Below, in pieces: positions 14,674 through 31,229 of a stretch of DNA of 64,000 bases (positions within the stretch are counted from its first letter, which is position 1; each line of letters starts with the position of its first letter). The notes beneath the pieces were generated by a model. It ran no database searches and was not told where the DNA came from. It was given only the letters and a program-made list of their open reading frames with translations. The stretch is from Sphingopyxis sp. (GTDB lineage Bacteria > Pseudomonadota > Alphaproteobacteria > Sphingomonadales > Sphingomonadaceae). Both the position numbers and the translations under genes were made by a program. Where the stretch lies: assembly GCF_025869345.1 (NCBI RefSeq), contig NZ_JAOZVW010000146.1, positions 62,001 to 126,000 on the forward strand, in the 5' to 3' direction.

Positions 14674-15360
14674 TTGGCGAATTTCATTGTTCCCGACCTG
14701 AAAATCACCCCGCGTTCGGGGGGCTATGCCCGCGGCCAGGATGGCTTTGAGCATATTCTCCGTTCGGCCCTGTCGCTGCTGGTGAACCATGGCTCGGCGG
14801 CACTGACGCTGCGCCGGATCGCCGCCGAATCGGGAATGAACGTCGGCAACCTCAACTATTATTTCCGCTCGAAGGACGAGCTGATCCGCGAACTGCTCGA
14901 TGCCGTGATCAGCAGTTATGAAGAATCGTTCGACGAGATCATCCACGAGCCGGGGGCCAGCGCCGAGGCGCGGCTCGAGAATCTGGTGACGCTGATCCTC
15001 GAAGACATAACGACCAAGAAGACGACGCGCTTCTTCCCCGAACTATGGGCGATGGCGAACCACGCCCCCTTCGTCCACGACCGGATGAACGAGCTTTACG
15101 AACGCGCGCGCGTTTCGCTCAACGAGCTGATTGCAGAGATCAATCCGGCGCTGCCCGGCGACGAGCGCGAGATATTGGCGCTGTTCATTTCGGGGTCGAT
15201 GGAGGGGCTGACGATGTTCGCGGGCTATGAAAAGCCGTGGTGCAGGCAGATGCCGATGCTCGAAGTGATCGCGCGCCGCTCGTTCGTCCATCTGGCGCGC
15301 ACCTTGCGCCCAGGCGAGATCAAGCGGACGATGGACATCCCGGCCCCCGCCCGCGACTGA
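14674..15360 (+). CDS. TetR-family transcriptional regulator (228 aa)
   Basis: DNA-binding repressor type. The N-terminal helix-turn-helix reads FEHILRSALSLLVNHGSAALTLRRIAAESGMNVGNLNYYFRSKDEL (about residues 25-70), a clear TetR_N pattern, followed by an all-helical ligand domain. The start is TTG at 14674: an in-frame stop lies at 14668-14670 and an RBS (GGAGG, 14659-14663) stands ten bases before it, so no ATG is available. It is divergent from mauB and likely controls the mau operon through the palindrome in between. It converges with the araC gene, with seven bases between the stops. Confidence 0.9.
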   Translation: MANFIVPDLKITPRSGGYARGQDGFEHILRSALSLLVNHGSAALTLRRIAAESGMNVGNLNYYFRSKDELIRELLDAVISSYEESFDEIIHEPGASAEARLENLVTLILEDITTKKTTRFFPELWAMANHAPFVHDRMNELYERARVSLNELIAEINPALPGDEREILALFISGSMEGLTMFAGYEKPWCRQMPMLEVIARRSFVHLARTLRPGEIKRTMDIPAPARD

Positions 15361-15367: not shown

Positions 15368-16393
15368 TCAGGCGCTGTCCGTCCGCGCGGCCTTGCGCGC
15401 CGCCTGCCACTCGCGCGGCGACTGGCCGAAGGTCTGGCTATGCCAGCGCGTGAAGGCGCCGATCGACGCATAGCCGAGCAACTCTGCGACATCGGTGATC
15501 CGCATCCGCGGATTGGCGAGATATTGCGCCGACAATTGCATCCGCGCGCGGTTGAGCAGGTCGCTGAACCCCGTGCCGTCGGCGACCAGCATCCGCTGAA
15601 GCGTCCGCACCGTCAGCCCCATCGACGCCGCCACATGCTGGATCGTCGCACGGCCGGTCGGCAGAAATATCATGATCGCCTGTTCGACATCCTGCGCCGT
15701 CGTGCGCAGCGCGGGGGTCATGATCGATTCGATCAGGTCGCGCGCATGATGCGCGAGATCCGAATCGGCCCGCAGATTGGGACGGTCGAGATCGCTCGCG
15801 GCGATGACCAGCCCATGGAATTCGCAGTCGAATTCGGGCTGGCACCGGAACAGGCGGCGAAAGATCGGCAGGTCGGCGGCGGGCGGTGCCTCGTGCGCGA
15901 AGCAGACCGACAGCGGCGCCCATGCCTCGCCCAGGACGCTCGCGCAAAGCCGCGCCAGCACCCCGAGCGCAAGGTCCGACGACTGCCGCGTCGCCTCGGG
16001 CGTGCTCAGCGAGAAATCCTCGCGCAGGATGATCTCGTCGCCGAACCGCTCCATCTGCAGCACGAGGGTCGAATTGATCCGGTTGCGAAATTCGGCGAGC
16101 GCGTGAAGGACATGCCCGAGCGTCGGCTGATGCGCGATCACCAGGCTGGTCACGCCCAGATTGGCGACCGCGCGCTCCTCGGCCATTCGCAGGCCGAGCG
16201 TGAGGCAGCCGCTCGCCTCCGCGCTGCGTTCGAGCAGGCGGATCGCCGCGCGCGCCGAGATGAGCTGTTCCGGATTCGCGAGCAGTTCGGGCGACAGGCC
16301 GTTTTCGCGGAGCAGCGAACGCGGGTCGGTGCCCAGCGATCGCATGATCGGGAAATAGCCGGTCAGCGCGGCCACGCGGACGAGTTCCGCCAT
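15368..16393 (-). CDS. AraC-family transcriptional regulator (341 aa)
   Basis: The N-terminal arabinose-binding-like domain of the OruR/ArgR type (AALTGYFPIMRSLGTDPRSLLRENGL) is followed by a C-terminal AraC helix-turn-helix. The latter includes RTLQRMLVADGTGFSDLLNRARMQLSAQYL and RITDVAELLGYASIGAFTRWHSQTFGQSPREW. The ATG at 16393 has a good RBS (GGAAGGAAAG); an in-frame start further upstream has none and would run through the promoter. It is divergent from the quinone oxidoreductase operon. It probably activates that operon and the TBDR at 21970, which shares a promoter element with it. Confidence 0.92.
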   Translation of the reverse strand: MAELVRVAALTGYFPIMRSLGTDPRSLLRENGLSPELLANPEQLISARAAIRLLERSAEASGCLTLGLRMAEERAVANLGVTSLVIAHQPTLGHVLHALAEFRNRINSTLVLQMERFGDEIILREDFSLSTPEATRQSSDLALGVLARLCASVLGEAWAPLSVCFAHEAPPAADLPIFRRLFRCQPEFDCEFHGLVIAASDLDRPNLRADSDLAHHARDLIESIMTPALRTTAQDVEQAIMIFLPTGRATIQHVAASMGLTVRTLQRMLVADGTGFSDLLNRARMQLSAQYLANPRMRITDVAELLGYASIGAFTRWHSQTFGQSPREWQAARKAARTDSA

Positions 16394-16426
16394 CTTGCTT
16401 TCCTTCCGCGCCTTGGCGTCGATTGC

Positions 16427-16452
16427 AAAAATACTGTCATGAATTGTGAAAA
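16427..16452 (+). promoter_or_regulatory. Candidate AraC-regulator binding element, copy 1
   Basis: An A-run followed by CTGTCATGAATTGTGAAA lies between the araC start (16393) and the quinone oxidoreductase start (16498). It is repeated with three mismatches over 25 positions at 21879-21904, upstream of a TBDR. The two TGT(C/-)xTGAA/TGTGAA half-sites in tandem look like the direct repeats bound by AraC-type activators. Confidence 0.6.
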
Positions 16453-16497
16453 GTGCAAGTGGACTCCCGGCTAATCCCGACAAAAGAGGAGAGGATC

Positions 16498-17475
16498 ATG
16501 GCGAAAGCTGTTCGCTTCCACGAAACCGGCGGACCCGAAGTATTGCGTGTCGAGGAGGTCGCGGTCGGCGACCCCGGCCCGGGCGAGGTCCGCGTCCGCC
16601 ACGCCGCGGTCGGCTGCAACTTCGCCGATACCTATTTCCGTTCGGGCTATTATCCCGCCCCCCTCCCCGCCGGCATCGGGGTCGAGGGCGCGGGGACGGT
16701 CGAAGCGGTCGGAGAGGGCGTGACCGGCTTCGCACCGGGCGACCGCGTCGCCTATAACGGCAGCCCGCTCGGCGCCTATAGCGAGGCGCGCGTCATGCCC
16801 GCCGCGCCGCTGTTCAAGCTGCCCGACGGCATCGCGATCGAGGACGCCGCGGCTTCGACGATGCGCGGCCTGTCGGCGACCTATTGGCTCACCAGGACCA
16901 ACCCGGCGATGAAGGCGGGCGACACCATCCTGCTCCACGCTGCGGCGGGCGGGGTCGGTCTGCTCGCGGTCCAGCTTGCGAAGCTGATGGGGCTGCGTGT
17001 CATCGGCACCGTGTCGAGCGAGGCCAAGGCCGAAAAGGCGCGCTCGCTCGGCTGCGACGAGATCATCTTCTATCGCCGCGAGGATGTCGCGGCGCGGGTG
17101 AAGGAACTGACCGGCGGCGAAGGCGTGACGACGGTGTTCGACAGCGTCGGCCAGGACACGTTCGAGGGGTCGCTGAAATCGCTAAAGCGGCGCGGCGTGC
17201 TCGTGGCCTGCGGCACCGCATCGGGGCCGTTTCCGCCGATCGACGTCTTTCAGTTGCTGATGCAGGGGTCGGTTTACGTCACCCGCCCCGGCTTCGCCGA
17301 CTATTATGCCGATCCCGCCGAGCGCGCCGAACTGTCGGCGCTGTGGTTCGGCCATCTCGCCGCCGGGCGGGTCAAGGTCGAGATCGGCCAGCGCTATGCC
17401 CTCGACGACTGTGTCGCGGCGCACCGCGAGCTCGAAGCCGGGCAAACCATCGGATCATCCATCTTCATACTCTGA
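16498..17475 (+). CDS. NADPH:quinone oxidoreductase, zeta-crystallin type MDR enzyme (325 aa)
   Basis: Medium-chain dehydrogenase/reductase of the quinone reductase group, reducing quinones or alpha,beta-unsaturated carbonyls with NADPH. It opens with KAVRFHETGGPEVLRVEEV, has the family signature in GCNFADTYFRSGYYPAPLPAGIGVEGAGTVEA, and a nucleotide-binding HAAAGGVGLLAVQLAK. No structural zinc cysteines are present, as expected for this group. The ATG at 16498 is placed by the RBS AGGAGAGG and by homology of the N-terminus. It is the first gene of a six-gene plus-strand operon; its substrate there is unknown. Confidence 0.9.
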   Translation: MAKAVRFHETGGPEVLRVEEVAVGDPGPGEVRVRHAAVGCNFADTYFRSGYYPAPLPAGIGVEGAGTVEAVGEGVTGFAPGDRVAYNGSPLGAYSEARVMPAAPLFKLPDGIAIEDAAASTMRGLSATYWLTRTNPAMKAGDTILLHAAAGGVGLLAVQLAKLMGLRVIGTVSSEAKAEKARSLGCDEIIFYRREDVAARVKELTGGEGVTTVFDSVGQDTFEGSLKSLKRRGVLVACGTASGPFPPIDVFQLLMQGSVYVTRPGFADYYADPAERAELSALWFGHLAAGRVKVEIGQRYALDDCVAAHRELEAGQTIGSSIFIL

Positions 17476-17487
17476 GGGAGAGAGGCG

Positions 17488-18336
17488 ATGAAGATCGAGA
17501 AGCTCACCTGTCATATCGGCGCCGAGATCAGCGGCATCGACCTGGCCGAAGCAGCGCAGAGCGACGATCTGTTCGGCGAAATCCGCGCCGCGCTGATCGA
17601 GCACAAGGTGCTGTTCCTGCGCGATCAGGACATTGCCCGCGCCGACCATGTCGCCTTCGCCAGCCGCTTCGGCGCGCTCGAGGATCATCCGGTGGTCGGC
17701 AGCGACCCCGACCATCCGGGGCTGGTCCAGATATACAAGGACGAAAGTTCGCCGCCCGACCATTATGAGAATAGCTGGCATTGCGACGCGACCTGGCGCG
17801 ACGCGCCGCCGCTCGGCGCGGTGCTGCGCTGCATCGCCTGCCCGCCGGTCGGCGGCGACACGATGTGGGCGAATATGGCAAAGGCCTATGCCGACCTGCC
17901 CGAGCATGTGAAGGCGATCATCGCGCCGCTTAAGGCGCGCCATTCGATCGAGGCGAGTTTCGGCGCGCGGATGGGCGAGGAGCAGCGTCACGCGCTGAAG
18001 GCGCGCTTTCCCGACGCCGAGCATCCGGTCGTCCGCACCCATCCCGAAACCGGCGAAAAGATCCTGTTCGTCAACGGCTTCACCACCCATTTCACCAATT
18101 TCCACACCGCCGAAAATGTCCGCTACGGCCAGGATTATGCGCCGGGGGCGGGCCAGCTCCTCGCCTATCTGATCGGCCGCGCGGCGATCCCCGAATATCA
18201 GGTGCGCTGGCGCTGGCAGCCGAACAGCGTCGCGATCTGGGATAACCGCTCGACCCAGCATTACGCCGTGATGGATTACCCGCCGACCACCCGCCGCATG
18301 GAGCGTGCGGGGATCGTCGGCGACCGCCCGTTCTGA
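17488..18336 (+). CDS. TauD/TfdA-family Fe(II)/2-oxoglutarate dioxygenase (282 aa)
   Basis: Non-heme iron oxygenase that hydroxylates a substrate with 2-oxoglutarate and O2, often leading to cleavage of a C-O, C-N or C-S bond. The iron triad is His98 and Asp100 in SWHCDATWRD plus His258 in STQHYAV. Arg269 (TTRR) is in position to bind 2-oxoglutarate. The length and N-terminal ISGIDLAE match TauD and TfdA relatives. It lies 12 bp after the quinone oxidoreductase, with RBS GGGAGAGAGG, and 22 bp before the BKACE gene. The substrate is not known. TfdA-like release of an acid or aldehyde, or gamma-butyrobetaine-like hydroxylation, are both possible. Confidence 0.93.
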   Translation: MKIEKLTCHIGAEISGIDLAEAAQSDDLFGEIRAALIEHKVLFLRDQDIARADHVAFASRFGALEDHPVVGSDPDHPGLVQIYKDESSPPDHYENSWHCDATWRDAPPLGAVLRCIACPPVGGDTMWANMAKAYADLPEHVKAIIAPLKARHSIEASFGARMGEEQRHALKARFPDAEHPVVRTHPETGEKILFVNGFTTHFTNFHTAENVRYGQDYAPGAGQLLAYLIGRAAIPEYQVRWRWQPNSVAIWDNRSTQHYAVMDYPPTTRRMERAGIVGDRPF

Positions 18337-18358
18337 TCATCGCACAAGGAGAGAAGAG

Positions 18359-19423
18359 ATGCAGTTTCTTGACGACAGCCTGCTTCCCGAAACGCAGGAC
18401 AAATTGGTCATCACCGTCGCGCCCTATGGCCCGGAATGGCACCCGAGCGACTTCCCCGAGGACATCCCCGTCACGATGGAGGAGCAGATCCAGAAAGCGG
18501 TCGACTGCTACAACGCCGGCGCGACCGTGCTCCACCTCCATTGCCGCGACGAGGACGGCTCGGGCTCCAAGCATCTCTCGAAATTCAACGAGCTGATCGC
18601 CGGGGTGCGCGAGCGCGTGCCCGACATGATCATCCAGGTCGGCGGCTCGATCTCCTTTTCGCCCGAAAGCGAGGAAGAAGGCGCCGAGGCGAAATGGCTG
18701 TCGGACGAGGTCCGCCACATGCTCGCCGACCTCAAGCCCGCGCCCGATCAGGTGACGATCGCGGTCAACACGACCCAGATGAACATCATGGATCTGATGA
18801 CCGAGGAAGAATATGGTAACACCTCGCTCGCCGCGCCCGCGCTCTATCACGCCTATCGCGAGATGGTCGTCCCCGCGACCCCGCAATGGGTCGAGGAGCA
18901 TCTGCGGCGGCTGACCGCGGCGGGCATCCAGCCGCATTTCCAGCTGACCTGCATGCCCGACATGGAAACGGTCGAGCGGCTGGTGCGCCGCGGGCTCTAC
19001 AAGGGACCGCTCAACCTGACCTGGGTCGGCATCGGCGGCGGCTTCGACGGGCCGAACCCCAATAATTTCATGGAGTTCATCCGCCGCGCCCCCGACGGAT
19101 CGACGGTGACGCTCGAATCGCTGATGCGCCATGTGCTGCCGGTCAACGTCATGGCGATGTGCCTCGGCCAGCATGTCCGCTGCGGCATCGAGGACACGCT
19201 CTACGATCAGCATGGCAACAAGATGACCTCGGTCCAGGGGATCGAACAGATCGTCCGGGTCGCCAGGGAACTGGGCCGCGAGGTCGCGACCGCGAAGGAA
19301 GCCCGCGAAATCTACAAGATCGGCGTGCAATATAATTCGGTCGAGGAAACGCTCGCCAAGCTGGGCATGGCGCCAAACCGCCAGCCCGGCCAGCGCGCGC
19401 TGCCGCTGCGTTACGCGGCCTGA
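18359..19423 (+). CDS. BKACE-family beta-keto acid cleavage enzyme (DUF849, 354 aa)
   Basis: TIM-barrel zinc enzyme family that condenses a beta-keto acid with acetyl-CoA to give acetoacetate and a new CoA ester. The metal-binding motif VLHLHCRDEDG is present (His59, His61), followed by MIIQVGGSISFSPES, where the family has its conserved glycine and serine region, and LTWVGIGGGFDGPNP. The ATG at 18359 follows RBS AAGGAGAGAAG; an earlier in-frame start lies within the dioxygenase gene. Substrates of characterised members range from 3-keto-5-aminohexanoate to dehydrocarnitine, so the family name does not fix the substrate here. Its place next to a TauD enzyme suggests that oxygenation creates the carbon skeleton later cleaved here. 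Confidence 0.9.
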   Translation: MQFLDDSLLPETQDKLVITVAPYGPEWHPSDFPEDIPVTMEEQIQKAVDCYNAGATVLHLHCRDEDGSGSKHLSKFNELIAGVRERVPDMIIQVGGSISFSPESEEEGAEAKWLSDEVRHMLADLKPAPDQVTIAVNTTQMNIMDLMTEEEYGNTSLAAPALYHAYREMVVPATPQWVEEHLRRLTAAGIQPHFQLTCMPDMETVERLVRRGLYKGPLNLTWVGIGGGFDGPNPNNFMEFIRRAPDGSTVTLESLMRHVLPVNVMAMCLGQHVRCGIEDTLYDQHGNKMTSVQGIEQIVRVARELGREVATAKEAREIYKIGVQYNSVEETLAKLGMAPNRQPGQRALPLRYAA

Positions 19424-19441
19424 GGCGGGAGCAAGACGACG

Positions 19442-20026
19442 ATGACTTTCGGCGGCGACACCACCATCCTCTTCGTTCCCGGCCTCAGGGATCATGTCGA
19501 GGATCATTGGCAGACCCATGCCGCGCGGGCGATCCCCGGCGCGGCGACGGTCGCGCCACTCGCCGCCGATCGGCTCGCCCGTGCCGGGCAAGTGGCGGCG
19601 CTCGACGCCGCGCTCCGCGCGATCCCCGGCGAAGTGGTAATCGTCGCGCACAGCGCCGGCTGCCTGACCACGATGCATTGGGCGCTCGCGCCGACGCGGC
19701 CGGTCCGCGCGGCGCTGCTCGTCACGCCCGCCGACATCGAGAACCCGCTACCCGCCGGCTATCCGGAGCCCGAGGCACTGAAGGCAGGCGGCTGGTTTCC
19801 GATCCCGAAGAAGCCCCTGCCTTTCCCGGCGATGGTCGTCGCGAGCCGCAACGATCCGCTCGCCGCCTTCGACCGCGTCGCGGGTTTCGCGGACGCCTGG
19901 GGCGCGGCGCTGCACGACGCGGGCGATGTCGGGCACCTCAATCCGGCGGCGGGCTATGGCCCATGGCCCGCACTGACCGATATGCTCGATCGGCTCGGCG
20001 ATCACGCCCGGAGCGCCGCGCTGTGA
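19442..20026 (+). CDS. RBBP9/YdeN-like alpha/beta serine hydrolase (194 aa)
   Basis: Small alpha/beta hydrolase of the RBBP9/YdeN family. It starts TTILFVPGLRDHVEDHWQTHAA. The nucleophile is the serine in VIVAHSAGC, the acid is likely Asp in VASRNDPLAAF, and the histidine is in DVGHLNPAAGYGPWP; the GHLN pattern is characteristic of this family. No signal peptide is seen. It ends in a GTGA overlap with the next gene. It could be a thioesterase or lactone hydrolase of the pathway, but the family is poorly characterised. Confidence 0.85.
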   Translation: MTFGGDTTILFVPGLRDHVEDHWQTHAARAIPGAATVAPLAADRLARAGQVAALDAALRAIPGEVVIVAHSAGCLTTMHWALAPTRPVRAALLVTPADIENPLPAGYPEPEALKAGGWFPIPKKPLPFPAMVVASRNDPLAAFDRVAGFADAWGAALHDAGDVGHLNPAAGYGPWPALTDMLDRLGDHARSAAL

Positions 20027-20406
20027 GCACGACCCCGGTCAGCGACGCGATGCGCGCGGGCGGCCAGTGGAACGCCGCGTGGGACGAGATGGCGGCACTC
20101 GACCCCATATGGCTCGAAACCTTTCTCGCCGCGGGCACGCTGCCGCTGCGGCGCGGGGTGCTCGATCCCAAGATCTACGAATTTCTCGCGATCGCGGTCG
20201 ATGCTTCATGCACCCACATGTATGCGCCGGGCACCCGCCGCCACATCGCCGCCGCGCTCGACAAGGGCGCGACGCCAGAGGAAGTGATGGCCGTGCTCGA
20301 AGCGGTCGCGGTGCTCGGTCTCCATTCGGTGGCGCTCGGCGCGCCCATGCTGGCCGAAGAAATGCAGGCGCGCGGACTGACGATGCCCGGCGCGGCGCGG
20401 GATTGA
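20023..20406 (+). CDS. Carboxymuconolactone decarboxylase/AhpD-family protein (127 aa)
   Basis: Small all-helical protein of PF02627. The core reads KIYEFLAIAVDASCTHMYAPGTRRHIAAALDKGATPEEVMAVLEAVAVLG, with the conserved Cys and His (SCTHMY) and the GATxEEV signature. Only one cysteine is present at the site, so the CxxC peroxidase chemistry of AhpD is not supported. The GTG at 20023 overlaps the hydrolase stop (GTGA); an ATG nine codons in (20050) is an alternative start. Members act as decarboxylases or have unknown roles; the job here is not assigned. Confidence 0.85.
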   Translation: MSTTPVSDAMRAGGQWNAAWDEMAALDPIWLETFLAAGTLPLRRGVLDPKIYEFLAIAVDASCTHMYAPGTRRHIAAALDKGATPEEVMAVLEAVAVLGLHSVALGAPMLAEEMQARGLTMPGAARD

Positions 20407-20451
20407 CATGAGCGCGTCCGCCGGCTTCTCGACATTCAGGTGGAGGCGGTT

Positions 20452-21741
20452 ATGGCGGTAATGGCACCCACGGCAAATGGCGACATCGCGCAGGGCGGTC
20501 CGCGCGATACCACCCTCTATGGCTGGATCGTCTTTGCGTTGAGCTTCGGGCTCCTCATCTCCGACTATATGGCGCGGCAGGTGCTGAATGCGGTCTTCCC
20601 GCTGCTCAAGGCCGAATGGGCCTTGAGCGATGCCGAGCTCGGCCTCTTGTCGGGCGTCGTCGCGCTGATGGTCGGCTGCCTGACCTTTCCACTCTCGCTC
20701 GCCGCCGACCGCTGGGGCCGCGTGCGCAGCCTCGCGTTCATGGCGGCGCTGTGGAGTTTCGCCACCTTGTTTTGCGCCATGGCCGCCAGCTATCCGCAAA
20801 TGCTGCTCGGCCGCGTCATGGTCGGGGTCGGCGAGGCCGCTTATGGCAGCGTCGGCATCGCGGTGGTGATCAGCGTCTTTCCGCAGCGGCTGCGCGCGAC
20901 GCTCTCGGCCGCCTTCATGGCGGGCGGATTGTTCGGCCAGGTTCTGGGCGTCGCGATCGGCGGCGAGATTGCCGCGAGCCATGGCTGGCGCACCGCCTTC
21001 GCCGTGATCGGGCTCGGCGGCCTCGCGCTCGCGATCGCCTATCCGCTGGTGGTTCGGGAAAAGCGGATCGCCACGATCGCCGGTCCCGACGCGCGGGCAC
21101 CGGACGCCCGCAAGCGCACGCCACTACGCGCGCTGTTCGCGAACCGCAGCGTGCGGCTCGCCTATCTTGCGAGCGGCATCCAGCTTTTCGCCGCGGGCGC
21201 CCTGCCCGCCTGGCTGCCGAGCTATTTCAACCGCTATTATGCGATGCCCGTCGATGCGGCTGGGCGGATGGCGGCGATCTTTCTGCTGATCTGCGGCTGC
21301 GGCATGGTCCTCTGCGGAATCGCGAGCGATCGCGCGGCGCAGGGGCGGCCCGACCGCAAGATATTGCTCGCCTCGGGCTATGGCTTCGGCAGCGCGGTCG
21401 CGCTCAGCCTCGCGCTGCTGTTGCCGCCGGGACCGGCGCAGCTCGCCCTCCTCGGCATCGCGATGTTCCTCGTCGCCGGGACAACCGGACCGGCGGGCGC
21501 GATGGTCGCCAACCTCACGCCCGCCGCGCTCCACGGCTCGGCCTTTGCAACGCTGACCCTCGCGCACAATCTGCTCGGGCTCGCGCCGGGACCGATCGCG
21601 ACCGGGCGCATCGCCGATGCGGTCGGCCTGCTCGACGCGCTGCGCCTTCTCCCCGCCACCGCCGTCATCGCCGCACTGATCTTTCTCGCGGCGCGGCGAA
21701 GCTATCTCACCGACCTCGAAACCGTCGCGCCGCAACCCTAG
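20452..21741 (+). CDS. Major facilitator superfamily permease (429 aa)
   Basis: Inner-membrane secondary transporter with about twelve hydrophobic segments. The loop 2-3 signature is present as SLAADRWGRVRS, and the second half repeats it around GIASDRAAQGRPDRK. It resembles the aromatic acid/H+ symporter and spinster-like MFS groups. I prefer the ATG at 20452, five bases after GGAGG; an in-frame GTG at 20440 is possible. As the last gene of the operon it would move the substrate or an intermediate across the inner membrane, after the TBDR has carried it through the outer membrane. Confidence 0.9.
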   Translation: MAVMAPTANGDIAQGGPRDTTLYGWIVFALSFGLLISDYMARQVLNAVFPLLKAEWALSDAELGLLSGVVALMVGCLTFPLSLAADRWGRVRSLAFMAALWSFATLFCAMAASYPQMLLGRVMVGVGEAAYGSVGIAVVISVFPQRLRATLSAAFMAGGLFGQVLGVAIGGEIAASHGWRTAFAVIGLGGLALAIAYPLVVREKRIATIAGPDARAPDARKRTPLRALFANRSVRLAYLASGIQLFAAGALPAWLPSYFNRYYAMPVDAAGRMAAIFLLICGCGMVLCGIASDRAAQGRPDRKILLASGYGFGSAVALSLALLLPPGPAQLALLGIAMFLVAGTTGPAGAMVANLTPAALHGSAFATLTLAHNLLGLAPGPIATGRIADAVGLLDALRLLPATAVIAALIFLAARRSYLTDLETVAPQP

Positions 21742-21878
21742 GATACCCCATCACGACCTCCTTTGCTGCGCGCCGCTGTCCCCGGCGCCAGGCCCTGCCG
21801 TCGCGCTTGCCATTGCGGCGGCCGCCGCCTTCCTTTGCGGCACTGGCCCTATTTCCCGCGCCAATGTGTCGCGTATTG

Positions 21879-21904
21879 AAAAAATTCTGTCGTGAAATGT
21901 GAAA
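21879..21904 (+). promoter_or_regulatory. Candidate AraC-regulator binding element, copy 2
   Basis: A-run followed by CTGTCGTGAAATGTGAAA, matching the element at 16427-16452 at 22 of 25 positions. It lies about 65 bp before the TBDR start at 21970, the right range for activation of that gene. The rest of the 228-bp gap after the permease shows no gene and no clear terminator. Confidence 0.6.
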
Positions 21905-21969
21905 TATCGCCCCGAGCGCCTCGATAGCCTCCGGCCAAACACAACGACGAATCATCTTGGGAGGGACGT

Positions 21970-24339
21970 ATGAAGACGATTGCCTACACCAGCCTTGCCG
22001 CTTTCGCCGCTGCGCTTGCGGCCACGCCCGCCGCCGCGCAGGACGCCGCGCAGGACGCCAGGCCTGCCGATGCCACCAGCGGCGACATGGGCGACGCGAT
22101 CGTCGTCACCGCACAAAAGCGCGCCGAGAATATCCAGGACGTGCCGATCTCGATCGCCGCGGTCAGCGGCGAAACGATGGAGAGCGCGAACATCCTCACC
22201 GTGATGGACCTCGGCCGCGTCGCGACCAATTTCCAGACGGTGCGATCGTCGAACACCGGCTCGACGCGCATCGGCATCCGCGGCGTCGGCAGCCTCGCCA
22301 ACACGCTGATCGAGCCGAGCGTCGCGGTGTTCGTCGATGGCGTCTATGTCCCGCGCTCGGGCTCGATCCTCGGCGCCTTCCTCGACATCGACGGGGTCGA
22401 GGTGCTGCGCGGGCCGCAGGGCACCCTGTTCGGCCGCAACGCCAGCGTCGGCGCGCTGTCGATCCGCAGCGCGCTGCCCGAAGACGAGTTTTCGGGGCAG
22501 GTCTCGGCAGAGGCCGGCTCGTTCGACCGCTACAAGCTGTCGGGCCATGTCAACATTCCGCTGGGCGAGAATGTTTCCGCGCGCGTCGCGGCGATGGGGC
22601 AATGGTATGACGGACCGTGGAAGAACCGCTACGACGGCAAGACCTATGGCGGGTCGGACGATGTCGCGGTGCGCGGCACGGTGAAGGCCGAGTTCGGCAA
22701 TCTCGAATGGATCGTGCGCGGCGATTACACGCGGCTCGACGGCGACGGCGTCGTGAATTTCGATTTCGACCCCGCCTCGATCGCCCCGGCCCGCCTCGCC
22801 TTTCTGCAAGCCGCGTTCAGCGGCGGTCCCGACACCGATTTGAACGACCGGGTGATGAACCAGTCGGTCGCCTCGGGCCTGCTCGACAAGAATTGGGGCG
22901 TGTCGAGCACCGCGTCGCTCGAAATCGGCGGCGGATCGACGCTGCGCCTGATCAACAGCTATCGCAAATGGACCAACGACCAGCTCGACGGCGACATCAT
23001 CTTCCTGCCCGTCCCGCTCGCGACGCGGCGCAGCCTGTTCGATTCGGGAAGCTGGAACCACGAGCTGCAATTCATCTCGCCCGAACGCGAATGGCTGGGC
23101 GGCCATTTCGACATGGTCGCGGGCGTCTATTATTTTCAGGAGAAGTTCGCGCTCGGCGAACAGCTCAACATGGACTCGCAGTTCTGCAACGTCCTTGTCC
23201 CCGCGGGACCGGGGCGCACCGCCTGCGCCGCTTATTACGCCAGCACCGGCGGCATCGCGGCGACCGATCAGGACGTGTTCCAGAAAGTCCGCAGCATCGC
23301 CGCCTATGCGCAGGGCAACATCTATATCGCCGACGCGCTGACCCTGACGCTCGGCGGACGCTGGACCAACGACCGCAAGCGCGGCAGCTATTCGCAGCTC
23401 TCGAGCCCCTTCACCCAGACGATCCGCGCGCCCGAGGTGCTCGACTATCCCGGCCTGTCCGAAAGCCGCTTCACCTATCGCATCAGCCTCAACTACAAGC
23501 CGGCGGACGCCGTGATGCTCTTCGTCAACCATTCGACGGGTTACAAGTCGGGCGGCTATAATTCGGGCGGCGGGGTGCCGGCACTGTCGACCTTCGACCC
23601 GCAGGGCAATCTGATCTCGACCCGGCGCGTGTTCGACCGCGAGACGGTCAAGAATTACGAGTTCGGCGCCAAGACGAGCTGGCTCGATCGCGCGCTGACC
23701 GCCAATTTCACCGTCTTTCGCATGGACATCGCGGGCTTTCAGGACCGCGCGTTCGACGGGGTCAGCTTCGTCGTCCGCAACGCCGGCAACCTCCGCCAGC
23801 AGGGCGTGGAGCTCGACCTCAGGCTTGCGCCGACCGATCGCTTCGCGCTCTCGGGCTCGCTTGCCTATCTCGACTCGAAATTCACCGATTTCGCCAATGC
23901 CTCGGGTCTTCCGGGGATCGGCGGGACGCAGGACCTGACCGGCAAGCCGAACAGCTTCTCGCCCGCCTGGTCGGGCAATGTCGCGGTCGACTGGAACGGC
24001 GATATCGGGTCGAGCGGGCTGGGATGGGCCGCGAACGCCAACGTTTCCTTCGTGTCCGACCAATATGTCGGCACCGTCAACGACGCCAACCCGCAATCGA
24101 TCGCCGACGGCTATGCGCTGCTCGGCGCGCGATTGACGCTGAACGGCCCGGACGATCGCTGGTCGCTGGCGATCTTCGGCAGCAACCTCACAGGCACCCA
24201 TTATCGCCCGCTCGCCGTCTATCAGCCGCTTGGCGCCGCGCTCGGCCTCAACAATGGGGCTTTTCCCGGCAGCACCGCCAATCGCATCATGGCGAACGAA
24301 CCGCGCACCTATGGCGTGTCGGCGAGCGTGCGGTTCTAA
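21970..24339 (+). CDS. TonB-dependent receptor, AraC-regulon partner (789 aa)
   Basis: Outer-membrane transporter with signal peptide ending near PAAAQ, TonB-box-like DAIVVTAQKR near residue 42-51, plug (DVPISIAAVSGE, IGIRGVGSLANTLIEPSVAVFVDGVYVPRSG, GVEVLRGPQGTLFGRNASVGALSI) and a long barrel ending GVSASVRF. RBS GGGAGGG stands before the ATG. It shares an upstream element with the araC/quinone oxidoreductase promoter, which ties it to the catabolic operon at 16498-21741. A bidirectional terminator follows it. Confidence 0.94.
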   Translation: MKTIAYTSLAAFAAALAATPAAAQDAAQDARPADATSGDMGDAIVVTAQKRAENIQDVPISIAAVSGETMESANILTVMDLGRVATNFQTVRSSNTGSTRIGIRGVGSLANTLIEPSVAVFVDGVYVPRSGSILGAFLDIDGVEVLRGPQGTLFGRNASVGALSIRSALPEDEFSGQVSAEAGSFDRYKLSGHVNIPLGENVSARVAAMGQWYDGPWKNRYDGKTYGGSDDVAVRGTVKAEFGNLEWIVRGDYTRLDGDGVVNFDFDPASIAPARLAFLQAAFSGGPDTDLNDRVMNQSVASGLLDKNWGVSSTASLEIGGGSTLRLINSYRKWTNDQLDGDIIFLPVPLATRRSLFDSGSWNHELQFISPEREWLGGHFDMVAGVYYFQEKFALGEQLNMDSQFCNVLVPAGPGRTACAAYYASTGGIAATDQDVFQKVRSIAAYAQGNIYIADALTLTLGGRWTNDRKRGSYSQLSSPFTQTIRAPEVLDYPGLSESRFTYRISLNYKPADAVMLFVNHSTGYKSGGYNSGGGVPALSTFDPQGNLISTRRVFDRETVKNYEFGAKTSWLDRALTANFTVFRMDIAGFQDRAFDGVSFVVRNAGNLRQQGVELDLRLAPTDRFALSGSLAYLDSKFTDFANASGLPGIGGTQDLTGKPNSFSPAWSGNVAVDWNGDIGSSGLGWAANANVSFVSDQYVGTVNDANPQSIADGYALLGARLTLNGPDDRWSLAIFGSNLTGTHYRPLAVYQPLGAALGLNNGAFPGSTANRIMANEPRTYGVSASVRF

Positions 24340-24344
24340 AAAGA

Positions 24345-24376
24345 AAAGGCCGGCCCGCGGGTGCGGACCGGCCTTT
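24345..24376. terminator. Bidirectional terminator after the TBDR
   Basis: Stem of 14 positions with one mismatch (24345-24358 with 24363-24376) and a 4-nt loop. On the minus strand it is followed by a U-rich CTTTTCTTTTT, giving a good terminator for the small gene at 24400-24570. On the plus strand it follows the TBDR stop by five bases but has only a short T-run. Confidence 0.75.
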
Positions 24377-24399
24377 CCGGACGGAGAGGATGTAACCGA

Positions 24400-24745: not shown

Positions 24746-26950
24746 TCAGTCCTGCCAGATGCGCTCCTTCAACGACACCGAGACGGGGGCCTGAAGCGTT
24801 TCCGCATCCTCGCCGAGCGCGAAGCGATAATCGCCCTTCGCGATCGTCCACCCAGTCCCGTTCCAGTCGGCGAGCAGTCGCGGATCGATCGTCAGCCGGA
24901 TGGTCCGTTCGGCACCGGGCGCCAGTTCGACCCGCTGGAAACCGACCAGCCGCTGCATCGGCTTGCCGCCGCGCGCCACGAGATAAAGCTGCGCCACCGT
25001 CGCACCCGCCCGCTCGCCGCCGTTGCGGACGGTGAAGCTGGCGGTTGCGCCGTCGGTCCTGAGCCCGTCCGTCGCGAAGCGTGTATAGGAAAGCCCGTGG
25101 CCGAACGGGAAAAGCGCCTTCACCCCGGTCCGCGCGTTCCACCGATAGCCGACGTCCGACCCCTCGTTCATCGTCGCGGTGACATGCGTGTTTTCGGGCG
25201 TGCCATAGCCGGGAATCGCGGGGCGCGGCAGCGTGTCGGTCGATGCGGGAAAGCTGACCGGCAGGCGGCCCGACGGATTGACCTTGCCGGTCAGCACGTC
25301 GGCGATCGCCGCGGCGCCCTCCTGTCCCGGATACCAGGCGGCGACGACCGCCTTCACCTTGTCCAGCCACGGCATGGCGACGGGATTGCCCGTTTCGAGC
25401 ACGACGATCGTATTGGGATTGGCCGCGACGGTCGCCTCGACGATCGCGTCCTGATTGCCGGGAAGCGACAGGTCGGGCGAATCGAACCCTTCCGCCTCAT
25501 ATTTGCTGACGAAGACGATCGCGACGTCCGAGCGCGCGGCGAGCGCCGCGGCGTCCTGCGGATAGAGGCCGGGATCGAAGCCGACATGCGCCTTGGGCAA
25601 GGCCTCGCGCAGCGCCGCGAGCGGCGCGCCCGCGAACCAGCGTTCGATCCGCCACGCGCCGATCGATCCGTCGCCGCCGCCGACCGGAACCGACGCCGCC
25701 CAGCCGCGCGGCGGCAGACCCTGCGACGATCCGCCGCCCGACAGTACGCCGACATGGGCATTGCGGCCGATCACCGCGACCGAGCCGACGTTGGCGGCGA
25801 GCGGGAGCGCACCGCCGTCATTCTTGAGCAGCACGATCCCCTGCTCGGCGATCCGCCGCGCGACCGCAGCGTGCGCCGCCATGTCCACCGCCGGCGCCGG
25901 GCCTGCGTCCACCAGCCCGTTCGCCTTCATCGAGCGCAGGATGCGGCGCACCATGTCGGACAATCGGTCGCGCGTCAGGCTGCCGTCGGCGAGCTTGGCC
26001 TTCAGCGGCGCGTCGAACCAGACCTGCTTGTCGAGCTGCTCGCCCGCCTGCTGGTCGAGGCCCTTGATCGCGAAGTCGGCGCCCGACACCGCGCCCCAGT
26101 CCGACATCACCCAGCCCTTGTAGCGCCAATCCTTCTTGAGGACAGTGTTGAGCAGATGGTCGTTACCGCACGCCTTTTGCCCGTTGACCAGATTATAGGC
26201 GCACATCACCGAGCCGGGATGGCCGCGCTCGATCGCGATCTGAAAGGCGAGCAGATCGCTTTCGCGGTGCGCCGCATCGTCGATCTCGGCGTTCCATGTG
26301 TGGCGGTTGGTCTCGTTCGAATTGAGCGAGAAATGCTTGACCGTCGACACCACCCCCGCCGATTGCGCGCCCCGCACCGCCGCGCCGCCCATGACGCCCG
26401 ACAGCAGCGGATCTTCGGAAATATATTCGAAATTGCGGCCGTTCCGCGGGTCGCGGATCAGGTTCATGCCGCCGCCGAGCAGGACGTTGAACCCCTTGGC
26501 GCGCGCTTCGCTCGCCACCGCCTCGGCGCCCGCGAAGGCCAGGTCGGGGTTGAAACTTGCGCCGAGCGCGAGGCCGGCGGGCAGCGCGGTCGCGCTGTCG
26601 CCCTTGCGGATGCCGAAGGGGTTGGTGACGCCCAGGCTGGCGTCGGTGGCGCGCTGCGACGGGATGCCGAGGCGCGGCACGCCCGCGACATAACCGGCGC
26701 CCGGAATCACGTCCTTCGGCCATTTCGCCTGCCATTCGGGGTCGGCATAAGGCCCGATCGGAATCGGCATGAAGCCGTGGAGCAGCGAGAAACGCTCGTC
26801 GTCGGTCATCTGCGCTTCGGTCTTCGCGGCCCAGTCGTCGGCCGCCGCCTCGGCCGCCGGAACCGGCCGTGCCTGGTCCTTCGCCGAAGCCGTCATCGCC
26901 GCGCATCCCAGAAGCATCGCCAGCGCCGTCGTCGCATAATATCCTCGCAT
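24746..26950 (-). CDS. Glycoside hydrolase family 3 beta-glucosidase (734 aa)
   Basis: Exported GH3 enzyme, most likely a beta-glucosidase or beta-xylosidase trimming non-reducing ends. A Sec signal (TTALAMLLGCAAMTASA) leads to the (alpha/beta)8 domain with LGGGMNLIRDPRNGRNFEYISEDP and VKHFSLNSNETNR. The nucleophile Asp is in WVMSDWGAVSG. The second domain has SVAVIGRNAHVGVLSGGGSSQ and a conserved KYEAEGFDSPDLSLP, and the C-terminal fibronectin-III-like domain holds FPFGHGLSYTRF. The ATG at 26950 is placed by the signal peptide. It lies 25 bp after the sulfatase stop, in the same operon. Confidence 0.93.
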   Translation of the reverse strand: MRGYYATTALAMLLGCAAMTASAKDQARPVPAAEAAADDWAAKTEAQMTDDERFSLLHGFMPIPIGPYADPEWQAKWPKDVIPGAGYVAGVPRLGIPSQRATDASLGVTNPFGIRKGDSATALPAGLALGASFNPDLAFAGAEAVASEARAKGFNVLLGGGMNLIRDPRNGRNFEYISEDPLLSGVMGGAAVRGAQSAGVVSTVKHFSLNSNETNRHTWNAEIDDAAHRESDLLAFQIAIERGHPGSVMCAYNLVNGQKACGNDHLLNTVLKKDWRYKGWVMSDWGAVSGADFAIKGLDQQAGEQLDKQVWFDAPLKAKLADGSLTRDRLSDMVRRILRSMKANGLVDAGPAPAVDMAAHAAVARRIAEQGIVLLKNDGGALPLAANVGSVAVIGRNAHVGVLSGGGSSQGLPPRGWAASVPVGGGDGSIGAWRIERWFAGAPLAALREALPKAHVGFDPGLYPQDAAALAARSDVAIVFVSKYEAEGFDSPDLSLPGNQDAIVEATVAANPNTIVVLETGNPVAMPWLDKVKAVVAAWYPGQEGAAAIADVLTGKVNPSGRLPVSFPASTDTLPRPAIPGYGTPENTHVTATMNEGSDVGYRWNARTGVKALFPFGHGLSYTRFATDGLRTDGATASFTVRNGGERAGATVAQLYLVARGGKPMQRLVGFQRVELAPGAERTIRLTIDPRLLADWNGTGWTIAKGDYRFALGEDAETLQAPVSVSLKERIWQD

Positions 26951-26975
26951 CCTTACCGCTCCCCTGTTTCTGGCT

Positions 26976-28715
26976 TCATCCTTCGCGTCCGGCAAGCGGG
27001 TGGCGGTCGAACAGGTCGGACAGGCGGCACGTCAGCGCCCCCGGTTGCGCCAGCACGCCGTTGCCGTAACGCGCCCATTGATCGTCCCACAGCGCCTTCA
27101 TCTCGGCGACCTTGGCCGGATAGCGAACGGCCAGATCGGTGCTTTCCGAAAAATCGCGGTCGAGGTCGAACAGCTCCCAGCGGTCGTTCGCATAGGGCTG
27201 ATCGCAATCGTGGAGCGCGACCGCGCGCCAGCGCCCGCTGGTGATCGCGCGGTTGCCGCGCAGCTCGAAATACTGGACCTGCCGGCCGGGCGCCTTGCGG
27301 CTGCGCACCGTCGGCAGGAAGGAGCGGCCCGCGACCGGAATCTGGGTCACGCCGCCGACCACCGGGTCGAAACGCGCGCCGGCCGCGTCGAGCAGAGTCG
27401 GCGCGATATCGACGACATCGACGAACTGGCGCCGGATCGCGCCCGGGTCCGTCACATGGTGCGGCCAGTGAAAGATCATCGGGGTGCGCGTGCCGCCCGA
27501 ATAGGGCCACAGCTTGTAGCGCCGCAGCGGCGTGTCGCCGACCATCGCCCACGGGCGCGGATATTCGGCCTGCGTCTTGGCGGTCCCCAGCTCGTCGATG
27601 CGCGCGCGCTGCTCGGCCGGAGTCAGGCTGTTCGCGCGATAGAGCCCGTCGAAGAAACCGCCCTGCCCCGCCTCCGACGCCGCGCCATTGTCGGACAGAA
27701 GGATGATGATCGTATTGTCGAACAGCCCCTGCTCGCGCAGCGCGCCCAGCAAACGGCCGATCTGCCGGTCGCAATGCTCGATGAAGCCGGCATAGACCGC
27801 CATATAACGGGCAAAGACGGCTTTCTCGTCATCCGACAAATCGGCCCACGCCCGGTCGCGCGGCTCGCGCGGCGGCAAAAGCGTGTCGGCGGGGATCAGC
27901 CCCATCTGTTTCATGCGGGCGAAGCGATCCTCGCGGACCTGGTCCCACCCCTTTTCGTAGATCGCGTCATAGGGCGCCGAATATTCGCGCGGCACCTGGA
28001 TCGGCGAATGCGCGGTGCCGAAGCCGAGGTTCATGAAGAAAGGGCTGTCCTTCTTTTCCGCGACATGGCGTTCGATCAGGTCGATCGCCTTGTCGGCGAG
28101 GTCGGCCGACAGATGATAGCCGGCGGGAAAGTCGCGCTTGATATAGGCATTATTCTCGACCAGCTCGGGCCGATACTGATCGGTCCAGCCCCTCGGAAAA
28201 CCGTAGAAATAATCGAATCCGCGCTGGAGCGGCCAATTGTCCCGCCCGGCGTCCTCGCCCAGTTCGTCCATCGGGATCATGTGCCATTTGCCGACCGCCC
28301 AGGTCGCATAACCCCGCCCTTGCAGCGCCTGCGCCATCGTCTGCGCATTGCCCGGCATCCGGAACAGCCGCGCCATCTGGGGATCGCCCGGCAGCACCGC
28401 GGCGACGTCGGGCACGTCGGGCATGTTGACCGTGTGGCAATTGCGCCCGGTCAGCAGCGACGCGCGGGTCGAGGCGCAGACCGCCTTGGTATCGAAATGC
28501 ACGTAGCGCAGCCCTGCCTCGGCAAGGCTGTCGATCGCCGGGGTGCGGATTTCGGCGCCGAAGCAGCCGATATCCGAATAGCCGACGTCATCGAGCACGA
28601 TGGTGATGATATTGGGCCGCGGCCCCGCCCTGCCGATCGCGCGCGCGGGCGTCAGGCCGCACAGGGTCGTGGTGGCCAGAAGGGTGCCGACGAAGCGGCG
28701 GCGGGAATAGTCCAT
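26976..28715 (-). CDS. Cys-type sulfatase (arylsulfatase family, 579 aa)
   Basis: Hydrolyses sulfate esters in the periplasm. A Tat signal (SRRRFVGTLLATTTLCG) is followed by the metal-binding LDDVGYSDIG (Asp42, Asp43). The active-site motif C80-A-S-T-R84 is followed by ASLLTGR; the cysteine is to be converted to formylglycine. Position 82 is Ser where the common motif has Pro or Ala. Downstream LLSDNGAASE holds further metal ligands. RBS GGAGCC lies before the ATG at 28715. The formylglycine-generating enzyme at 32535 supplies the needed modification. Operon order TBDR-sulfatase-GH3 implies a sulfated glycoside as substrate. Confidence 0.93.
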   Translation of the reverse strand: MDYSRRRFVGTLLATTTLCGLTPARAIGRAGPRPNIITIVLDDVGYSDIGCFGAEIRTPAIDSLAEAGLRYVHFDTKAVCASTRASLLTGRNCHTVNMPDVPDVAAVLPGDPQMARLFRMPGNAQTMAQALQGRGYATWAVGKWHMIPMDELGEDAGRDNWPLQRGFDYFYGFPRGWTDQYRPELVENNAYIKRDFPAGYHLSADLADKAIDLIERHVAEKKDSPFFMNLGFGTAHSPIQVPREYSAPYDAIYEKGWDQVREDRFARMKQMGLIPADTLLPPREPRDRAWADLSDDEKAVFARYMAVYAGFIEHCDRQIGRLLGALREQGLFDNTIIILLSDNGAASEAGQGGFFDGLYRANSLTPAEQRARIDELGTAKTQAEYPRPWAMVGDTPLRRYKLWPYSGGTRTPMIFHWPHHVTDPGAIRRQFVDVVDIAPTLLDAAGARFDPVVGGVTQIPVAGRSFLPTVRSRKAPGRQVQYFELRGNRAITSGRWRAVALHDCDQPYANDRWELFDLDRDFSESTDLAVRYPAKVAEMKALWDDQWARYGNGVLAQPGALTCRLSDLFDRHPLAGREG

Positions 28716-28781
28716 CGATCGGCTCCATATTCCGGCGGGGACGCGGCGCTCGGGCCGGCGTCCCCGCCATCTGCGGGCGGG

Positions 28782-31073
28782 TCAGAAGCGAACCCGGCCT
28801 TCGACCCCAAAGGTGCGGAAGGCATCGGGGGTCAGCAATTGCGTGTAGCCGGCGCCCGTCGCCGACGTGTCGAGCAGGCCGGCGCCGATGAAGCTTGCGA
28901 AATGCTTGTTGGTCAGATTCTTGCCGAACACCGACACACCATAGCGGCCGTCCTGCGTCTCGAGCGACAGGCGCCCGTTCAGCAGGCCATAGCCCGGCTG
29001 GGCGGTGTTCGGATCGCGATAGCCGAAGAGCGTCTTCGACCGATAGGTGAACGCCAGATTGGCGCTGCCGCGCAGGGTGCTGCCGATATCGGCGCCATAG
29101 TTGGCGTTCAGCGTCCACGCCCATTTCGGCGCGTTGGTCAGCGCTTCGCCGGTAACGTCCTGACGGCCGCCGACGCAGCCTTGCTTTGCGGTCTGCCCGG
29201 CATAGCAGCTCACGATCAGCCCGCGCACTTCGGTGTCGGTAAAGGCAAGGTTGCCCGACAGATTGAGTCCATCGACCGGCCGCAGAATCGCCTCGACCTC
29301 GGCCCCCTTGGTGATCAGCTTGCCCGCGTTGGTGAGCTGGAACGAGGTCAGGAGCGCGCTGTAGGTCTGCGCCTGGAAATCGGTGAAGGTCTCGTAAAAG
29401 CCCGTGACGTTCAGCGTCAGCATCCGGTCGAACAGCGTCGTGCGGACGCCAGCTTCCCAGTTGCGCGCGATCTCGGGCCGCAGCACCGCCAGCCCCGCGT
29501 CGACCGTTACCGCGGTCAGATTGTTGAGCATGTTGAGCGCCGGCCCCTTGTAGCCGCGCGTATAGGTGGCATAGGCCATGACATCGGGCGACGCCTGATA
29601 TTGCACGCCCAATTTATAGCTGAGGTCGGTGTCGGTGGCCTTCAGCGTCGGCGCGGCATAGGCGGGTCCGCCCAGGCTCGGCATCGCGGCGACGGCGCCC
29701 GGCAGGATCGTCCGGTCGAAATGCGCCACCGCCTGCTCTGACGTCAGGCGAAAGCCGCCGATCAGCGACAGGCTGTCGGTCAGATGCCCGGTGACCTGCC
29801 CGAAAGCGGCGACATTCTTGGTCGTAATGTCGCGGTCGACCTGGTTGCCGAGATACAGGTTCCCGGGCAGGTTCACGACCAGCTTGCCCTTCACCTGCGT
29901 CTGGCTGACGACGTCCTGCCAGAAATAAAAGAGGCCGACGACATATTCGACCGGCTCGCCCGCGGGCGACGTCAGCCGCAGTTCCTGCGTGAACTGCTGC
30001 TGCTTCTGACGGGCGCTGTTGAGGCTCACCACCGGCAGGGGAACCCCATCGGGGTCGTTGTTGTCGAACACCTTGAACTCGCGATAAGCGGTGATCGAGG
30101 TGATCGTCTGGCCGCCGAGTTCGGTGTTGATCTCGACCGATGCGCCGCCGGTCTTCTGATGGTTGAAATAATCGCCGTCGATCGTCACCTCGCGGTTGAG
30201 CGGGCCGAGCGTCTGGCCGGCGAGCAGGTCGGCCCGCTTGTCGCCATTGTAATAGACCGTCGTCGGCAGCACCGAGCGCACGGTCGAGACGCAGCAATTG
30301 CGATTGCTCTCGCCATAGTCGCCGATCACATAGATCGAGGTGACGTCGCTCGGCTCGAACAGAAATTTTCCGCGCACGCCCCAACTGTCGTTGTCGTTGA
30401 GCTTTTCGCCGTTGACGGTGTTGGTGATGATCCCGTCGGCCTTCGACCGGAATCCCGAGATGCGCAGCGCCGCGCGTCCCTGGTCGAGCACCAGCGACCC
30501 GGTGGCCTTGAGCCGGACATCGTCGAACGTGCCATAGCTCGCCGACGCTTCGAGACTCGATTCATGAAGGTCGGGCTTGCCGGTGACGACGTTGAGCGCG
30601 CCGGCCGAGCTGTTCTTGCCGAACAGGGTTCCCTGCGGCCCGCGCAGCACCTCGATGCGTTCGATATCGTTGAAATCGAAGAAGGAGGCGGCCGAGCGGC
30701 CGATGACGACGCCGTCGATCACCGTGGAGACCGAGGGTTCGACGCCGTCGGAGAAGTTGAGCGTGCCGATCCCGCGGATCGAAAGCCCCTGCCCGCGCGT
30801 GTTGGCGCTGTTGGTGAAGCCGATCGAGGGCGACACCAGCGAGAGCTGCTCGAGCCCGCTGACCCGATTGTCGGCCAGCACCGCCGACGACAGGACCGAG
30901 ACCGAAACCGGCACTTTCTGAAGATTCTGTTCGCGCTTTTGCGCGGTCACGACGATCTCGTCGCCCGCGACATCGTCCGCCGCGGCGGGCGCCTCTTGCG
31001 CGTGCGCGGCAACCGGCGCCGACAGCGCGAGGGCGGCGCTGCTCATCCAGCAGGCTTTGCGGCGGTAATTCAT
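28782..31073 (-). CDS. TonB-dependent receptor of the sulfatase locus (763 aa)
   Basis: Outer-membrane transporter, first gene of the TBDR-sulfatase-GH3 operon. The signal peptide ends near VAAHAQE; then TonB-box-like DEIVVTAQKR, plug (VPVSVSVLSSAV, RGIGTLNFSDGVEPSVSTVIDGVVIGRSA, RIEVLRGPQGTLFGKNSSAGALNV) and a barrel ending GVEGRVRF. RBS GGGAGG precedes the ATG at 31073; an in-frame start 12 codons upstream lacks one. A perfect palindrome 68 bp upstream is the likely LacI operator. The partner enzymes suggest import of a sulfated saccharide or glycoside. Confidence 0.94.
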   Translation of the reverse strand: MNYRRKACWMSSAALALSAPVAAHAQEAPAAADDVAGDEIVVTAQKREQNLQKVPVSVSVLSSAVLADNRVSGLEQLSLVSPSIGFTNSANTRGQGLSIRGIGTLNFSDGVEPSVSTVIDGVVIGRSAASFFDFNDIERIEVLRGPQGTLFGKNSSAGALNVVTGKPDLHESSLEASASYGTFDDVRLKATGSLVLDQGRAALRISGFRSKADGIITNTVNGEKLNDNDSWGVRGKFLFEPSDVTSIYVIGDYGESNRNCCVSTVRSVLPTTVYYNGDKRADLLAGQTLGPLNREVTIDGDYFNHQKTGGASVEINTELGGQTITSITAYREFKVFDNNDPDGVPLPVVSLNSARQKQQQFTQELRLTSPAGEPVEYVVGLFYFWQDVVSQTQVKGKLVVNLPGNLYLGNQVDRDITTKNVAAFGQVTGHLTDSLSLIGGFRLTSEQAVAHFDRTILPGAVAAMPSLGGPAYAAPTLKATDTDLSYKLGVQYQASPDVMAYATYTRGYKGPALNMLNNLTAVTVDAGLAVLRPEIARNWEAGVRTTLFDRMLTLNVTGFYETFTDFQAQTYSALLTSFQLTNAGKLITKGAEVEAILRPVDGLNLSGNLAFTDTEVRGLIVSCYAGQTAKQGCVGGRQDVTGEALTNAPKWAWTLNANYGADIGSTLRGSANLAFTYRSKTLFGYRDPNTAQPGYGLLNGRLSLETQDGRYGVSVFGKNLTNKHFASFIGAGLLDTSATGAGYTQLLTPDAFRTFGVEGRVRF

Positions 31074-31140
31074 CTTATCCTCCCAGATTGCCGCCGTCGC
31101 AATTCGCATCGACAGCGAAGCCCTGCCCCGTTCACGATTC

Positions 31141-31156
31141 GGGACAACGTTGTCCC
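31141..31156. promoter_or_regulatory. Candidate LacI operator, perfect 16-bp palindrome
   Basis: GGGACAACGTTGTCCC, a perfect palindrome with the central CpG usual for LacI-family operators. It lies 68 bp upstream of the TBDR start. The lacI gene at 31417-32475 is next to it in the same orientation. Confidence 0.7.
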
Positions 31157-31229
31157 AATCCTCTAATGGAGCATCGATCCATCGTCAATATCGGGCGATC
31201 GATCGATGGACGCGGTGGCTATGGCCTAT

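Follow-up and report, generated by a model that had tools for sequence, protein, structure and literature searches.

A tandem direct-repeat element shared by a catabolic operon and a TonB-dependent receptor gene in Sphingopyxis, predicted as the operator of the adjacent AraC-type regulator

Introduction

The araI1-araI2 operator at the araBAD promoter of Escherichia coli is a direct repeat with 21-bp spacing, in which araI2 overlaps the −35 region and the araC gene is divergent. This study focused on a comparable element in a Sphingopyxis sp. genome, within a stretch of 64,000 nucleotides (contig NZ_JAOZVW010000146.1, positions 62,001 to 126,000; hereafter the window). The element occurs twice, once before an operon of catabolic genes, the first of which encodes a zinc-type NADPH:quinone oxidoreductase-like protein (QOR), and once before the gene for a TonB-dependent receptor (TBDR) that follows the operon. 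Both copies are very probably operators of the adjacent AraC-type regulator (15368–16393), which would co-activate the catabolic operon and the TBDR gene; this reading draws on the observed element, with its position, spacing and promoter geometry, and on the way it co-occurs and co-varies with the regulator. E. coli AraC, whose araI1/araI2 shift is described in PMC6018408, acts as a dimer on two half-sites beside the polymerase, as is proposed here. The half-site sequence at araBAD differs from that of the window operators. The sensors differ as well, that of E. coli AraC being an arabinose-binding cupin, and that of the window regulator PF12625.

The polyethylene glycol (PEG) degradation operon of Sphingopyxis macrogoltabida reportedly includes a receptor gene, pegB, and is otherwise said to consist of different genes. 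According to a title cited in PMC7142613, it is also a catabolic operon under AraC-type control; S. macrogoltabida is probably a near relative.

The element and its two promoters

A first-pass annotation of this DNA had reported a 25-bp match between AAAAATACTGTCATGAATTGTGAAA (16427–16451) and AAAAATTCTGTCGTGAAATGTGAAA (21880–21904), both in promoter regions. This was borne out, with correct coordinates, 22 of 25 identical positions and a copy in each of two promoter regions. The boundaries of the element have had to be redrawn, as the conserved unit is larger and consists of two 18-bp half-sites, the full elements spanning 16414–16452 and 21867–21905. The TGAA and TGTGAA units that had been taken for tandem half-sites are present, but both lie inside one 18-bp half-site, and the leading A-run, also present, closes the upstream half-site. 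The second copy does precede a TBDR gene 5.4 kb away; this is not a separate, distant locus, but the last gene of the same-strand cluster. Aligned sites of related clusters give the consensus TGGCRYNNAWTGNNAAAA-N3-TGTCRYGAAWTGTGAAA, in which an 18-bp half-site is repeated directly with a period of 21 bp. The predicted operators and their promoters comprise the following features:

16414–16431, plus strand: upstream half-site of operator 1, TGGCGTCGATTGCAAAAA
16435–16452, plus strand: downstream half-site of operator 1, TGTCATGAATTGTGAAAA, starting 21 bp after the upstream one and 12/18 identical to it
16470–16477, plus strand: likely −10 region at operator 1, GCTAATCC, with TA at 16472–16473 at the invariant offset (hexamer phase presumed)
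21867–21884, plus strand: upstream half-site of operator 2, TGTCGCGTATTGAAAAAA
21888–21905, plus strand: downstream half-site of operator 2, TGTCGTGAAATGTGAAAT, starting 21 bp after the upstream one and 12/18 identical to it
21923–21930, plus strand: likely −10 region of the TBDR promoter, GATAGCCT, with TA at 21925–21926 at the invariant offset (hexamer phase presumed)

Compared with upstream stretches, the half-site profile shows a single similarity peak, at a shift of 21 bp (r 0.78, against 0.34 for the next best). Columns inside the element carry 1.54 (QOR sites) and 1.60 bits (other sites) of information, as opposed to 0.33 and 0.53 in the upstream flank and about 0.7 downstream. These values and the profile were taken from 20 of 27 QOR rows and 16 of 21 other rows, reduced to 17 and 13 by removing L061–L063 (near-copies of L060); divergent, paralogue and other-gene sites were left out. 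Beyond the element, a TA dinucleotide that was no part of the search pattern stands exactly 58 bases from the element start in 28/28 QOR sites and 19/19 TBDR sites, and at any other offset within 52–65 in at most one site. These counts include the near-copies L060–L063 along with divergent and paralogue rows, and exclude, like the correlations given below, L069:1088 and L084:5917, where AraC does not face QOR. The invariant TA is probably part of the −10 box, and on that assumption the downstream half-site falls over the −35 region, which is the class II activator arrangement. Two traits of class II operators are present, namely direct half-sites about two helical turns apart and a fixed position before the −10 box.

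Overlap with the presumed −35 region would also suit an operator at which AraC mainly represses, or acts both ways, until a ligand releases it, and AraC sites over −10 and −35 boxes are read as repressive in Caenibius tardaugens (PMC12882949). However, a recognisable −35 consensus was found at neither promoter, and the constant distance to the −10 TA in 47/47 sites suits contact with polymerase better than blocking, for which no fixed distance is needed, so that a mainly repressive role is considered unlikely.

Conservation across related genomes

The first-pass annotation had proposed a genome-wide motif search and would have taken many random copies as evidence against its regulon. Few copies turned up: the window's genome (4.0 Mb) has five tandem sites at ≤3 mismatches, two in the window and three in a paralogous AraC cluster, and a reversed-pattern control gave none in any genome listed, whether the genome itself, the genus or the family. 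A half-site match at C146:37377, outside the window and with 3 mismatches, has no tandem partner and was judged to be due to chance.

Across the genus, 25 tandem sites were found in 10/80 genomes. Nine of the 80 have a full-length match to the AraC regulator (74–100% identity), and all nine carry the element at both promoters; among the remaining 71, G041 alone has an element, at a single site. At family level, 26 tandem sites at ≤2 mismatches occur in 14/397 genomes, of which 13 are among the 20 genomes with an AraC relative (E ≤1e-60). The 14th is again G041, which has no such regulator. Its locus (G041:C1, L115:9541–11538) holds a C-terminal YeiH piece and, in front of a TBDR gene without about residues 266–554, one operator that differs from the pattern at 1 position, and neither AraC, QOR nor TauD was detected in the 19 kb fetched; from this gene content it is read as a decayed remnant of the cluster.

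Between AraC and QOR, the best tandem match reaches at least 24/31 in 27 of the 28 loci with a facing AraC relative, and second-best positions score 17–22, except for a second copy scoring 30 in L071; the scores are partly circular, because the pattern was drawn from part of the scored sites. The best site is 8–37 bp away from where the AraC match begins in 26/28 QOR-facing loci. Among the 22 loci with a TBDR of this type (≥52% identity) in the fetched stretch, 19 have the element at the TBDR promoter. The view that one AraC regulator governs both the catabolic operon and outer-membrane uptake is supported by this comparison, through the co-occurrence seen here and the co-variation described below. 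Some loci depart from the usual plan: L071 (G114:C12:88549 and 88710) has two complete tandem operators in the same orientation before QOR, 161 bp apart, and L068 and L069 (G403:C11) have three AraC relatives (60, 68 and 77% identity) within about 20 kb, with tandem sites nearby. The fetched stretches L066, L067, L086 and L087 contain no such cluster.

The TBDR gene could also owe most of its expression to read-through from the QOR promoter, the second element being a relic or a mere booster, for it lies on the operon strand, 228 bp after the last operon gene, encoding a major facilitator superfamily (MFS) transporter, and the gap between them has only two overlapping, weak terminator-like matches (21815–21829, 5 pairs), such matches being at chance level in the region (6 found, 5.6 expected). 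However, the second element is no less conserved than the first (the 1.60 bits per column given above), the −10 geometry is unchanged in all 19 TBDR sites, and G041 keeps the second element despite loss of the operon, all of which makes dependence on read-through quite unlikely. The second element seems to mark a promoter inside a single cluster, from which the TBDR gene would have its own transcription.

Recognition of the element

Over 28 loci, the distance between operators correlates with that between AraC helix-turn-helix (HTH) domains at 0.85 and with QOR protein distance at 0.77. With QOR held fixed, the partial rank correlation of operator with HTH is 0.57, a value reached by 0 of 2000 permutations (maximum 0.49); with HTH held fixed, that of operator with QOR is 0.20. 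This supports, but does not prove, recognition of the operator by the HTH domain of AraC.

The paralogous cluster in the window's genome (L064, G000:C159:48000–67000) encodes AraC (61% identical), QOR, TauD, MFS and TBDR proteins and two beta-keto acid cleavage enzymes (BKACE). Shifted tandem sites, with TGGC for TGTC in the downstream half-site, precede QOR, the two BKACE genes and the TBDR gene, the last of these sites matching the paralogue pattern at only 27/35. The paralogous araC looks intact, as the TGA at residue 334 of the match is simply where the gene ends; C159:58906–59154 holds a short stretch resembling YeiH. The same architecture thus recurs with a paralogous regulator and a changed operator, which offers a natural test of how regulator and operator diverge after duplication. 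Elsewhere, G000:C138:70583–70792 holds a fragment that matches AraC residues 141–211 at 73% and has an internal stop, probably a decayed further copy of araC.

Since the QOR operator of the paralogue is 74% identical to operator 1, cross-binding is possible, and the gene adjoining araC (14674–15360) encodes a TetR-family protein, either of which might be the regulator that binds the element. Outside the window, the TetR gene was found in only 1/32 fetched stretches, L056 (the L074 stretch ends too close to araC to bear on this), and the element is a direct repeat with no palindrome (best inverted matches 10/20 and 12/22); TetR was rejected as its binder, being rarely present beside araC and the element not being palindromic. 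A paralogue near 60% identity is absent from 7 of the 9 genus genomes in which both promoters carry the element, and paralogue sites in L064, L065 and L068 have TGGC instead of TGTC in the downstream half, a distinction weakened by the TGGC downstream half-sites of L077 and L079. Binding chiefly by another regulator is, on balance, very unlikely.

Statistics of the 25-bp match

An identity of 22/25 is by itself neither rare nor convincing, because a same-strand scan of the whole, G+C-rich window finds 25-mer pairs with 22 or more identities on 21 diagonals; the promoter pair is one of these, and the other 20 visibly contain more G+C. No third copy at ≤3 mismatches occurs in the window (expected 0.00). 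It is the comparison across relatives, not identity alone, that makes the element convincing. A chance likeness of A-rich promoter sequence, suggested by the A+T content of the two 25-mers (19/25 and 18/25, in a window of 65% G+C), has practically nothing left to recommend it, as it is refuted by conservation of the element across genera and none of 1000 dinucleotide-preserving shuffles of the two intergenic regions reached 22/25 (best 25-base match: mean 15.5, maximum 20).

Gene cluster and proposed regulation

The cluster consists of the AraC gene facing the QOR-TauD-BKACE-hydrolase-CMD-MFS operon, followed by the TBDR gene on the operon's strand:

15368–16393, minus strand: AraC-family regulator, 341 aa, ATG at 16393; PF12625 sensor (132.2 bits) and PF12833 HTH_18 (55.7 bits), both above cut-off
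16498–17475, plus strand: QOR, first gene of the operon
17488–18336, plus strand: TauD/TfdA-family 2-oxoglutarate dioxygenase (PF02668); nearest solved structure 5vn6, 485.7 bits
18359–19423, plus strand: BKACE (PF05853)
19442–20026, plus strand: small serine hydrolase (PF06821)
20023–20406, plus strand: carboxymuconolactone-decarboxylase-like protein (CMD; PF02627), alternative ATG at 20050
20440–21741, plus strand: MFS transporter (PF07690)
21970–24339, plus strand: TBDR, with PF07715 plug and PF00593 barrel
24343–24378, minus strand: terminator-like hairpin of 16 pairs, immediately beyond the TBDR stop codon, with a minus-strand T-tail (pattern match only)

With its PF12625 sensor and AraC-type HTH, the regulator belongs to the AraC/XylS type. 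The 16-pair hairpin may end the cluster. Beside it, the window at 24746–33545 encodes, from sequences read by eye, a GH3-like beta-glucosidase, a sulfatase, a second TBDR, a LacI-type regulator and a formylglycine-generating-enzyme-like protein, and may be a separate locus for uptake of a sulfated glycan.

Regulation by AraC would most likely proceed as follows. Each operator, a pair of direct 18-bp half-sites 21 bp apart and on one face of the helix, would suit one regulator dimer, with the downstream half-site ending about 17–19 bp before the −10 box and overlapping the −35 region. The regulator would sense a ligand, presumably the substrate or an intermediate, and ligand-bound dimers would fill both tandem operators and recruit RNA polymerase at both promoters by class II activation. 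The operon and the TBDR gene would then be switched on together, coupling uptake and breakdown of one compound. Operator 1 starts 20 bp before the araC start codon, on the other strand, so binding there probably also limits transcription of araC, and autorepression is plausible.

Several observations weigh against this proposal. Operator distance correlates with that of the sensor domain at 0.80, nearly the 0.85 of the HTH, so that part of the signal is shared ancestry. An AraC relative occurs without a site at the family threshold in seven of the 20 family genomes that have one; these seven regulators are 38–57% identical, whereas G104 (50% AraC identity) and G330 (57%) do have a site. Within this group of seven, the AraC-QOR region of L085 scores 20/31, a background level, yet has the TA at the usual offset; L080–L083 have weak sites in place (24–26/31), and the TBDR genes of L080, L081 and L082 lack a full element. 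The AraC gene at L069:1088 does not face QOR, and the match upstream of it is again at background level (20/31). The best site is 65 bp from the regulator in L081 and 190 bp in L071, the latter having a nearer second site (30/31). Finally, a consensus promoter scan found no consensus sigma-70 promoter at either site, which is expected of an activated promoter but is not proof of one.

Substrate

A PF03601 (YeiH-type) gene with at least 62% identity to that of L058 directly follows the MFS gene in 16/32 fetched loci, L058 itself included. Unlike many relatives, the window has no YeiH-type gene after MFS (21741–21970); its genome has two nearly full-length PF03601 matches elsewhere, on C128 and C47. 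PF03601 is the family of TauZ-type sulfate exporters. For taurine regulons, PMC5320631 gives TauZ as a sulfate exporter. Aligned with E. coli TauD, the TauD-like protein is identical at H70, R266 and R270 and differs at Y73 and N95. It scores 256.9 bits against the taurine dioxygenase model PRK09553, below the curated cut-off of 313. Altogether, there are hints, to be taken with low confidence, of a substrate other than taurine, either a sulfonate or a sulfate ester; a sulfur substrate is kept merely as a hint because the window's own cluster has no exporter. It could be speculated, as a tentative and rather doubtful extension, that the cluster is an undescribed pathway by which sphingomonads use a large organosulfonate or sulfate ester, with TonB-dependent uptake, TauD-type oxygenolytic desulfonation, BKACE cleavage and, in relatives, YeiH/TauZ-type sulfate export, run by duplicated AraC regulators whose operators would have diverged together with their HTH domains, giving parallel, insulated regulons in a single genome.

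Comparison with known systems

The best NCBIfam models for the regulator are QhpR (172.9 bits), GliR (101.8) and CypR (92.5), and it was rejected as an equivalog of any of the three, since these scores are far below the curated cut-offs of 250, 570 and 500. Solved VirS (8rcx) matches it at 108.5 bits over nearly its whole length. QhpR, GliR, CypR and VirS presumably all have PF12625 sensors. No paper on the window cluster or its operator was found in open-licence PMC text.

The carbohydrate utilization (CUT) loci of Xanthomonas and the predicted HutC regulons of Sphingomonadales likewise bring together a local regulator, degradative enzymes, an inner-membrane transporter and a TBDR (PMC1790865 and PMC5343134). 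Unlike these, the window cluster has an AraC-type regulator and tandem direct repeats, whereas the xylose regulon motif described there is palindromic. As there is no carbohydrate-active enzyme among the operon genes, the cluster falls outside CUT loci in the narrow sense, despite its TBDR, MFS transporter and regulator. What the analysis adds is a predicted operator, with sequence, spacing and promoter geometry, for a PF12625 AraC regulator, and a sphingomonad TBDR tied to a catabolic operon; the operator could serve as a reporter handle for finding the substrate. The arrangement itself, judged from the sequence comparisons, would be of a known and ordinary kind, in which a local AraC-type regulator acting at tandem direct-repeat operators co-regulates catabolism and TonB-dependent uptake.

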